A stretch of DNA of 62,441 bases from Sulfurimonas sp. Lineage in GTDB: Bacteria; Campylobacterota; Campylobacteria; Campylobacterales; Sulfurimonadaceae. The notes below the pieces were generated by a model. The model ran no database searches. It was not told the origin of the DNA and saw only the letters and a program-made list of their open reading frames with translations. Made by a program: the position numbers and the translations under genes. Below are positions 4,930-48,038 of this stretch, in pieces. Each line of letters starts with the position of its first letter. The stretch's first letter is position 1. The DNA is taken from positions 1 through 62,441 of the forward strand of contig NZ_JALSKT010000018.1 of NCBI RefSeq assembly GCF_026988655.1. The letters run 5' to 3'.

Positions 4930-6177
4930 TTAGTATGTTGCTTGGTTATAGATTACGAATTTATGCGCTAAATCTCTGAGCTCAAGTTTTATCTTTGCTT
5001 GTAGTTCAGTGTTATTGATATCATCAAGAACATCAGCCATTTTATTTGCAATTAACTCAAATTCAGGCTCTTTCATCCCTCTAGATGTAAGTGCTGGAGA
5101 ACCTACACGTATTCCTGAGGTAACAAATGGACTTCTTGTCTCACCAGGTACAGTGTTTTTGTTTACTGTAATACCTGCATTTCCAAGTGCTGCATCAGCT
5201 TCCTTCCCAGAAATTTCAGTACCTACAAATGAAACAAGCACAAGATGATTATCAGTTCCGCCCGATACTACATCATACCCACGTTTCATAAGTACATCAG
5301 CTAAAACTGCTGCGTTTGCTTTTACTTGTTTAGCATAATCCTTCCATGCAGGAGAAAGGTTGTATTTAAAACCAACCGCTTTTGCTGCAATAACATGAAC
5401 AAGTGGTCCACCTTGTAGAGCTGGGAAAATTGCAGAATTTATTTTCTTTGCAATATCTTCATCATTTGTCATTATCATACCACCACGAGGGCCTGCAAGT
5501 GTTTTGTGTGTTGTTGTTGTTACAACGTGCGCATGAGGAAATGGGCTAGGGTGTTCTCCTGCTGCTACAAGTCCAGCGATATGTGCAATATCAGCAAATA
5601 AAATTGCGCCAACTTCATCAGCTATCTCACGAAATTTTGCAAAGTCAATTTCCCTTGCATAAGCAGAAGCACCACAAACGATAATCTTTGGTTGTACTAT
5701 TTTTGCAATATCTAAAACTCTATCGTAGTTGATACGACCATCTAGCTCAACTCCATAAGTGAAACTAGAGTAATTTTTACCTGAAAAACTGGGCTTTGAA
5801 CCATGAGTTAAGTGACCACCGTGACTTAAATCCATACCTAAGAGTTTGTCACCAGCCTTTAAAAGTGCTGCATAAACTGCACCATTGGCTTGACTTCCTG
5901 AGTGTGGTTGTACATTTGCATATTTGCATCCAAAAAGCTCACATGCTCTATCTATTGCTAGCTGCTCAACACTATCTGCATGTTCACAACCACCGTAGTA
6001 GCGTTTTGCAGGATAACCCTCTGCATATTTGTTCGTAAACACAGAACCCATTGCTTCCATTACTGCGGGAAGAGTAAAGTTCTCAGATGCAATCATCTCT
6101 AAGTGGTCAGTTTGTCTCTCTAGCTCTTTTTCGCATAAGTTATAAACTTCTTCATCGTACTCTTTTAAAAAACTCAT
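4930..6177 (-). CDS. glyA: Serine hydroxymethyltransferase
   Basis: PLP enzyme interconverting serine and glycine with tetrahydrofolate, the main one-carbon source. The 415 residues carry the N-terminal [11 protein letters not shown] and [16 protein letters not shown] motifs, the [10 protein letters not shown] loop and the PLP lysine K225 in [14 protein letters not shown]. Length is standard. AAGGATTTTTATACC precedes the ATG. It heads a leftward run glyA-DUF1882-SPOR-trpE-aroE, and its promoter is divergent from that of the desulforubrerythrin gene. Confidence 0.97.
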
Positions 6178-6204
6178 GGTATAAAAATCCTTATAAAATT
6201 AAAA

Positions 6205-6303
6205 ATATTATCATTGTACTAAAAATATAATAATATTGTTCTGAATAAAAACAATATAATGGATAATAATTTTCCTTTAAGTTTACTTATGTAATAATGA
6301 TTG
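6205..6303. promoter_or_regulatory. Divergent glyA / desulforubrerythrin control region with dyad
   Basis: For glyA (- strand) an extended -10, TGATAATAT, reads leftward over about 6205-6213. For the rightward gene there is TATAAT at 6255-6260 and a second possible -10, TGTAATAAT, near 6290. An inverted repeat TAATATTGTT (6231-6240) and AACAATAT (6250-6257), with a 9-base centre, overlaps the first rightward -10. Its position suggests an operator for a redox or metal regulator (PerR/Fur-like), but the sequence does not match a consensus I know with certainty. Confidence 0.45.
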
Positions 6304-6330
6304 AAATAATCGTCAAATAAAGGATATGAA

Positions 6331-6987
6331 ATGAGACAGTATGAAACGTATACGTGTGAGATATGTGGGAATGTAGTTGAAGTACAAAACGTGGGTGGTG
6401 GGGAGCTTTATTGTTGTGGTCAAGCTATGAAAATGGATACTGAAAATCTTACCTTGGTTAATTTGATGAAGGCTTTTGCAGGAGAGTCACAAGCAAGAAA
6501 TAAATATGAATTTTATGCAAAAGTAGCGCAAAAAGAAGGGTATCGTGATATTGCCGCACATTTTCAAAGAGCTGCTAATAATGAAAAAACGCATGCAAAA
6601 CTGCAGTTGGCACTTCATAATCGAATAAAATATGAAAGAGAAAATAATTTTGGCTCAACAGAAGAAAATCTTCAAGATGCTATAAATGGAGAGCATTATG
6701 AAAATCAAAGTATGTATCCTGATTTTGCAGCGATAGCAAAAGCTGAGGGGGATAAAGAGGCTGCGGCACTCTTTACTGCCATAGGTAAAGTAGAAATTGA
6801 GCATGAAAAAATGTATAGAATGTTACTAGAGCGATTAACTACAGGACATGAATTTGAGGGTGAACTAGAAGAAGCTTGGATTTGTGAAGTGTGTGGGCAT
6901 GTTCATTATGGGAAAAAACCGCCGAAAAAATGTCCTGTTTGTAAACATCCTCAGGAATATTTTTCAAGACTTATTGAAAGTAAATAA
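6331..6987 (+). CDS. Desulforubrerythrin (peroxide-reducing)
   Basis: A 218-residue cytoplasmic non-haem iron protein with three modules. First, an N-terminal desulforedoxin-like iron site (C9-x2-C12 and C28-C29, in CEICGN and LYCCGQ). Second, a central four-helix rubrerythrin diiron domain at about 38-170 (GESQARNKYEFYAK, NEKTHA, EIEHEKMY). Third, a C-terminal rubredoxin at about 180-215 (CEVCGHVHYG and CPVCKHP). This order matches the Campylobacter jejuni protein called Rrc or desulforubrerythrin, which reduces hydrogen peroxide. AAAGGATATGAA precedes the start. It lies between lysS and glyA, which are neighbours in Campylobacter, so it is an insertion into a conserved block. Confidence 0.9.
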   Translation: MRQYETYTCEICGNVVEVQNVGGGELYCCGQAMKMDTENLTLVNLMKAFAGESQARNKYEFYAKVAQKEGYRDIAAHFQRAANNEKTHAKLQLALHNRIKYERENNFGSTEENLQDAINGEHYENQSMYPDFAAIAKAEGDKEAAALFTAIGKVEIEHEKMYRMLLERLTTGHEFEGELEEAWICEVCGHVHYGKKPPKKCPVCKHPQEYFSRLIESK

Positions 6988-47289: not shown

Positions 47290-47330
47290 AGGAGTAGTTT
47301 ATCATACTTCAGTATAATACGCAAAAAATT

Positions 47331-47596
47331 AAGTGCTGACCAGAATAAATGACATAATTCAATGAAGAGAGAAACTATGAGCTGTGAGGCAAAAATCCGC
47401 AGGAGCTACTAGTAGCTTTAAGGGTTTTTAACGAAGCAGATTGTAGTTTCTCTCTTCACCCGTAGGGCAAGTTTTTAAAAGGCTCATTTTCTTCGTTGAA
47501 CTTCTGCTAACGATGCTAGCATCGTCAACAAAAGTTCGCCTTGAAACTAAACCTTTTAAAAATTGTTGAATATGTCATTTATTCTTGTCAGGCACT
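47331..47596. repeat. 266-bp non-autonomous element with 31-bp inverted ends and nested hairpins
   Basis: The ends are AAGTGCTGACCAGAATAAAT and, inverted, AAGTGCCTGACAAGAATAAA, matching over about 31 bp. Inside are a perfect 14-bp inverted repeat GAAGAGAGAAACTA (47364-47377 / 47444-47457), the perfect palindrome AGCTACTAGTAGCT (47404-47417), a long hairpin at 47498-47537 centred on GATGCTAGCATC, and arms GTTTTTAAAAGG / CCTTTTAAAAAT (47471-47482 / 47552-47563). No reading frame of note. It occupies most of the 320-base gap before the next gene; 34 further bases on the left show nothing. Confidence 0.85.
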
Positions 47597-47609
47597 TGAA
47601 AGAGAACCT

Positions 47610-48038
47610 ATGGATGCAAAAATAGAAAATATACTAGAAATTTGGCATAAACATTTTAATGATGAAGAGAATCAATATTCAGAATTTGAACCCTCAGATA
47701 TAGAGTATTTCGTTGGTTGTATGCTGTACAACCATTTTGCTTTTTCAAAAGCACTTGATAATCTTAAAACTATAGATTTGAGTTATGACTTTTTGTCTTC
47801 ATGTGGGGATGAATATGAGCACATTAAAGAGATGATAGCTGAGATAAAATTTGATACCGAAGAAGAGTCTTTAAAATTTTTACAAGAGTATATAAACGAA
47901 GCACAACAAAAGTATACACAAGCAGAACTTTATCTCTTAAATCGTCTTGCGTATCATGTTGGTGCAATGGCTGAGCGTTATGCAAAAAATGTAGATGTCC
48001 AGAGAATTGATTTTGAAAATCCATTACTGAGAAAGTGA
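47610..48038 (+). CDS. Small acidic helical protein, function unknown
   Basis: 142 residues, predicted all-helical and acidic, not recognised. It starts 14 bases after the 266-bp repeat element; the frame stays open into the repeat, but the ATG here is the first Met outside it, with only a weak AAAGAGAA upstream. The promoter must lie inside or left of the repeat. The stop overlaps the thiE start (TGATG). Confidence 0.6.
   Translation: MDAKIENILEIWHKHFNDEENQYSEFEPSDIEYFVGCMLYNHFAFSKALDNLKTIDLSYDFLSSCGDEYEHIKEMIAEIKFDTEEESLKFLQEYINEAQQKYTQAELYLLNRLAYHVGAMAERYAKNVDVQRIDFENPLLRK

Follow-up and report, generated by a model that had tools for sequence, protein, structure and literature searches.

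The mobile element at positions 47331–47597 of the window (the whole stretch of 62,441 nucleotides of Sulfurimonas sp. DNA analysed here) is Y-shaped, and its fold has been preserved across copies while the sequence varied. Most likely, this Y-element belongs to a family of non-autonomous IS630-type elements that extends across the phylum and is conserved in structure. The original prediction, made from the letters of the window, was of a 266-bp element (47331–47596) with paired ends and nested hairpins; both repeats and folding bear this out, and the improved limits give 267 nt running from AAGT to ACTT. No description of this family was found in the open-access literature by title or abstract.

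Architecture, copies and distribution

In the overall fold, the terminal inverted repeat forms an outer stem that leads to two hairpin arms of 95 nt, and a mini-hairpin of 3 bp lies between the arms. The parts and their immediate surroundings are as follows:

47313–47318, + strand: TATAAT hexamer 12 nt before the Y-element, candidate promoter of the gene at 47610; consensus match, present in empty sites too
47330–47331, unstranded: putative target TA, left; across the family T precedes AAGT in 79 of 92 ends, and the right counterpart (47597–47598) is TG
47331–47597, unstranded: whole Y-element, AAGT...ACTT; repeats and fold, further copies in the same genome, site empty in nine relatives
47331–47362, + strand: left terminal inverted repeat, half of the outer stem; pairs with 47566–47597
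47363–47457, + strand: arm 1, 95-nt hairpin, favoured strand +; fold and arm model R1 (99 bits, E 1.2e-18)
47404–47417, unstranded: tip of arm 1, palindrome AGCTACTAGTAGCT; read from the sequence
47459–47467, unstranded: mini-hairpin CCC-GTA-GGG between the arms; fold, with CCC/GGG columns nearly invariant in 43 aligned elements
47470–47565, − strand: arm 2, inverted hairpin, favoured strand −; fold and model R1 (84.8 bits, E 2.2e-15)
47566–47597, − strand: right terminal inverted repeat; matches, at 25 of 29 positions, the repeat that follows the remnant of an IS630-type transposase gene in relative G018
47610–48038, + strand: neighbouring gene, function unassigned, starting 13 nt after the Y-element and outside it; open reading frame, its start backed by the empty-site alignment

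The ends, which had been said to match over about 31 bp, pair along some 32 nt, interrupted by one mismatch and two gaps of a single base. The predicted perfect 14-bp inverted repeat joins 47364–47377 with 47444–47457 around the tip palindrome, and the second hairpin, in agreement with the strand difference claimed for it, is a continuous helix of 18 bp on the − strand and a broken one on the + strand. What was missed is that the two hairpins are inverted copies of a single arm motif, with arm 1 lying on the + strand and arm 2 on the − strand; they have CAAGGC- or GAGGC-like 5' sides, AACGAAG 3' sides and shared internal-loop positions. Both strands fold far more stably than dinucleotide shuffles, with z = −13.0 for the − strand and z = −10.7 for the + strand, and for each strand none of 200 shuffles did as well. 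The 267 nt hold no open reading frame of 90 amino acids and no transposase gene; the frame listed from 47541 begins within arm 2 and is part of the neighbouring gene.

The element had also been taken to be non-autonomous and mobile with other copies, a reading that was to fall if no related genome held another one. Searches of the genome and its relatives found such copies. BLAST of the 266 nt against its own draft genome gave 28 matches, including two long ones (84% over 266 and 82% over 214), and model R1, built from 16 arms, gave 42 matches, or 38 distinct arms after removal of four opposite-strand duplicates. The architecture is common to elements of this genome whose stems and ends differ strongly. 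Arms were present in 25 of 60 relatives at E 0.001 (4 of 22 genera) and in 51 of 397 Campylobacterota genomes at E 1e-5 (21 of 68 genera), with 10 candidates scored per genome in the latter survey. Copy number is patchy, with zero in many genomes of the same genus. A 21-base pattern of the arm tip matched 102 contigs, and the 80 among the matches listed were all Campylobacterota, mostly Sulfurimonas; of six pattern matches in viral contigs, none had an arm at E 0.01.

Geometry was determined on alignments of 145 matches (48 loci) together with 150 of 214 matches from 77 of 102 genome-contig loci and 6 viral loci, where overlapping opposite-strand matches were dropped and removal of duplicated places left 98 unique and 59 non-redundant elements. 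All 104 adjacent arm pairs were head-to-head, with a gap of 7–13 nt that was exactly 11 in 74, and 25 of 233 arms had no partner, many of them at contig ends. Twenty-two further loci contained 15 full head-to-head pairs, one partial partner, five single arms and one exception, the element-like pair at L290 (1501–1699), which carries both arms on the same strand and is the sole departure from the head-to-head rule. Three solo palindromes in the window's own genome (L015, L019, L024) consist of the outer repeat only, and the arms are absent from them. The claim that the element is more organised than an ordinary MITE is supported.

Compensatory change and strand preference of the arms

The stems are conserved by compensation. 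In a model-free MAFFT alignment of the 16 BLAST-found arms, 33 of 37 arm pairs showed two-sided changes and 90% of cells paired; the pairing score was 0.777, against 0.251 for shuffled alignments (0 of 500 as high) and 0.140–0.255 when the structure was slid. For 43 whole elements, two-sided change was seen in 86 of 88 pairs (score 0.783, shuffled 0.226, slid 0.131–0.274), on a structure (A5) that was predicted from the same alignment on which it was scored. Any inverted repeat would be expected to covary as the outer stem does, but not as the arms do. The test for compensatory changes in aligned copies, proposed together with random decay of the stems as the contrary outcome, therefore found no such decay, because the stems are preserved through compensatory change. 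Conservation at the level of structure, with two-sided changes in most pairs, is to our knowledge an unusual feature in a MITE.

The path of this change could be followed by comparing arms at different distances, in comparisons that are not mutually independent. Between arms at most 3% apart there were 31 one-sided changes, of which 23 went from Watson-Crick to G-U and 2 to A-C, and two two-sided changes, one of them kept; between arms 15–25% apart, 1867 two-sided changes were kept. Single steps from Watson-Crick to G-U at close range and two-sided changes at a distance are the pattern of evolving folded strands, which argues against template switching. An alternative is that the palindromes are maintained by template switching in replication, so that their structure is under no selection, and such repair of imperfect palindromes is known; it predicts, however, simultaneous change on both sides, in conflict with the 31 one-sided changes, 23 of which passed through G-U, and it sits badly with internal loops that hold fixed places. 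We consider it quite improbable.

The G-U preference points to a particular strand of each arm. When each arm of the 59 non-redundant elements was read inward, the left arms had 209 G-U against 46 A-C and the right arms 210 against 42. Alignments fitted to a model lean toward that model; the model-free checks are the 16-arm covariation and the corresponding ratios of 36:8 and 34:7. With a crude fixed pairing the ratios were weaker, at 102:74 and 115:47. The outer stem is without the bias (32 G-U, 47 A-C), and arm 2 read on the + strand of the A5 structure has no clear one (67 G-U, 56 A-C); the A5 column pair 177–221 alone is U-G in 34 elements. The G-U bias that had been noted is therefore real, but the observation was only half right, as each arm is biased on its own inward-reading strand.

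This geometry also bears on the suggestion that the whole element is a structured RNA. Either strand folds very stably and the covariation is strong, as would be expected of one RNA gene transcribed from a single strand. However, the favoured strands of the arms are opposite, so no one transcript carries both arms in their favoured sense, and a functional RNA of the whole element is unlikely. Copies are moreover scattered, with empty sites, and no Rfam family reached its gathering score in the window, while seven loci gave six matches at chance level (up to E 5). One of these six, a match of mir-266 on an arm of L008 (E 1.3), was rejected as below the gathering score of that family. Taken together, we find a single structured RNA very improbable.

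For the 39 elements that lie between co-directional genes, selection on host transcripts would be expected to keep the 5' arm better than the 3' arm, and there was no clear difference (144:27 in 5' arms vs 134:40 in 3' arms, p = 0.10). Since the bias is alike in 5' and 3' arms, it belongs to the element itself and not to its present site. The favoured strand also folds better with DNA folding parameters, in 59 of 59 and 57 of 59 elements for the two arms.

Ends, probable transposase partner and sites of insertion

AAGT is present at both ends of 46 of the 98 unique elements, and the base outside it is T in 79 of the 92 ends. In 36 of the 46 elements the ends are spanned by a direct repeat, TA, of two bases or more, and longer repeats occur at the level of shuffled flanks. 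Empty orthologous sites were found for other elements as well, and those of three (L141, L085, L056) are compatible with a single TA. Empty sites are 65–77% identical, several of those for the element at 47331–47597 are without TA, and TA may belong to the repeat itself instead of marking a duplication. Judged from these ends, the elements would suit insertion at TA.

As for the enzyme, the window-class repeat (up to two mismatches) occurs at 51 places in 11 genomes, and a reversed control pattern at none. One of these repeats, in relative G018, lies directly behind a DDE_3 fragment reading ...PPYSPELNPIEMLW..., in the position where an IS630 right end sits, and its similarity to the right end of our element scored 21, where 200 shuffles reached 17 at most. 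The Y-element is thus most likely a non-autonomous element of the IS630 type, a link that appears well supported but comes from one truncated locus. DDE_3 transposases were absent from the element's own genome, and a search of 37 genomes of the same genus found them in two, in one case below the cut-off; nine of 60 relatives had a match, and no tracking of the Y-element was seen. Arms were not found in nine loci of the phylum with IS630 hits (best E 0.43). A repeat pattern run over 11 genomes gave many solo, half and whole elements and, by eye, no inverted pair 0.8–3 kb apart that could mark an autonomous copy.

Several candidates were discarded. The single repeat at L014 adjoins the end of an unrelated insertion sequence, and L088, considered as an element with cargo, is rather two broken Y-elements that flank the genes; between them (5983–6739) lie small genes named by eye as nucleotidyltransferase-like and HEPN-like. 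An IS630-type element in G043 (L340, 700–1819) has ends starting TAAGTAG and TAAGCAC, the first bases of which resemble Y-element ends. In the intergenic region orthologous to that of the window, relative G011 carries two tandem insertion-sequence copies with a DDE-like transposase (L215, 881–3760); these are insertion sequences and were rejected as the autonomous partner. Relative G018 carries what seems, by eye, to be a Y-like insert of another class (L220) at the orthologous site itself. This region has been a landing place of several mobile elements.

The original prediction had proposed a search for a REP-associated transposase. Paired inverted hairpins and intergenic position are what one would expect of a REP/BIME-type repeat moved by a RAYT transposase, but Y1_Tnp (PF01797) gave no match in the element's own genome (a 96% complete draft; the control matched in 5 of 14), and both the TA-type ends and the IS630 link would suit a different partner, so that we regard such an origin as extremely improbable.

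A crude ORF caller placed 78 of the 98 elements between two genes: 35 are between divergent, 39 between co-directional and 4 between convergent genes, and on the sides facing a gene start the ORF begins at a median distance of 29 nt. The copy at 47331–47597 is placed between a TATAAT and the start of the following gene. Of 181 flanks, 17 have an exact TATAAT at a distance of 4–15 nt from the element, compared with 6 when the opposite strand is read (p = 0.03); because this interval was chosen after looking, the preference for promoters is weak.

Copies also reach rRNA genes, although the one in the window is itself outside rRNA. In genome G125, the only one of the loci examined for rRNA motifs that has them, all three 16S genes carry a complete Y-element, identical across a stretch of 272 nt where the Rfam model has 7 positions; the insert replaces the tip of a helix, and with filters off R1 finds its arms at 62.5 and 53.1 bits. 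Long 16S genes occur in at least three other genomes, G091 (two of three copies), G097 (three of three) and G094 (three of three), with inserts of about 230 nt apparently in the same helix as that of G125. With filters off, and with E-values that are rough for models of this type, R1 scored 26.5 bits in G091 (E 3.7e-4), 18.8 bits in G094 (E 0.022, borderline) and 9.7 bits in G097 (E 2.8, not significant), and gave no match on three insert-free 16S genes. The link between 16S insert and Y-element is firm in G125 and likely in G091.

Proposed role of the arms and comparison with known systems

We propose that an IS630-type transposase, acting in trans, would have moved the Y-element into a TA beside a promoter, with the terminal inverted repeats as the transposase sites. 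The interior would be two head-to-head arms, long maintained as folded strands, which we infer to act in RNA: a transcript entering from either side would meet the first arm in its favoured sense. RNase III may then cut both this arm and the outer stem; the RNA would thereby lose the insert, and insertions in leaders, and even in rRNA, would be tolerated. Processing of RNA is our first choice for the role of the arms, and the account as a whole, of an IS630-type (Tc1/mariner-like) non-autonomous element whose hairpin arms act in RNA and are removed by RNase III, is in our judgement evenly poised between right and wrong. If the arms do work in RNA, the transposon would itself restrict the harm that it causes once it has been transcribed.

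The arms could instead act as DNA, where the inward-reading strand at each end folds for a transposase, a recombinase or a junction-cutting enzyme in the manner of attC. The two-fold symmetry and fixed geometry of the Y-element, the equal bias in both arms whatever the direction of the neighbouring genes, and the better folding of the favoured strand with DNA parameters all speak for such a role. Yet no folded strand is needed, because IS630-type elements transpose as double-stranded DNA, no candidate enzyme was found, and sites within 16S rRNA and beside gene starts point to RNA. It seems rather unlikely that the arms act as DNA.

Returning to action in RNA, a wider and more tentative extension, which may be correct though we lean against it, is that transposons of Campylobacterota have become intron-like in RNA: inverted arms, one of which has the working sense in either direction of transcription, would let RNase III excise the transposon from transcripts, so that it could insert beside promoters and even in 16S rRNA, the rRNA intervening sequences of Campylobacter and Helicobacter would be their settled descendants, and the class would be ancient.

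Among known systems, the Correia elements (CREE) of Neisseria and the TA-inserting MITEs ERIC and RUP resemble the Y-element in being short, non-coding, intergenic and bounded by inverted repeats. All three insert at TA, and RUP belongs to the IS630 family; they are simple imperfect palindromes whose copies are alike in sequence. The Y-element differs in carrying two long arms in addition, in its fixed Y-shaped geometry and in stems that have diverged and remain paired. The Correia MITE is described as frequent immediately upstream of genes, with RNase III cutting its transcripts within the repeats (PMC10969869).

With the insertion sequences of the IS630 family, the Y-element shares TA-type ends, and the IS630-type remnant in G018 shares its end repeat; it differs in having no transposase gene, as the nine IS630-hit loci differ in having no arms. 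Integron attC sites are imperfect hairpins in which structure is better kept than sequence and one strand is read. The Y-element is similar in its hairpins, in structure kept beyond sequence and in its strand preference, although its unit is two inverted hairpins within inverted repeats.

A further parallel, within this phylum, is that with the rRNA intervening sequences of Campylobacter and Helicobacter. In Helicobacter fennelliae, such a sequence of 355 bp is reported at position 175 of 16S rRNA with a 24-bp end stem, and another of 271 bp with a 21-bp stem in 23S rRNA, for which a common ancestral element was suggested (PMC3335488); excision of rRNA intervening sequences is attributed to RNase III (PMC8708148). 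The complete 272-nt Y-element in the 16S genes of G125 is the likeness; the difference is that, of the three inserts of about 230 nt, one matches an arm, one is borderline and one is not significant. The available text of published accounts leaves the origin of these sequences in this phylum open, and the Y family gives a concrete candidate source for them in Campylobacterota, with which the question of their origin becomes testable by sequence.
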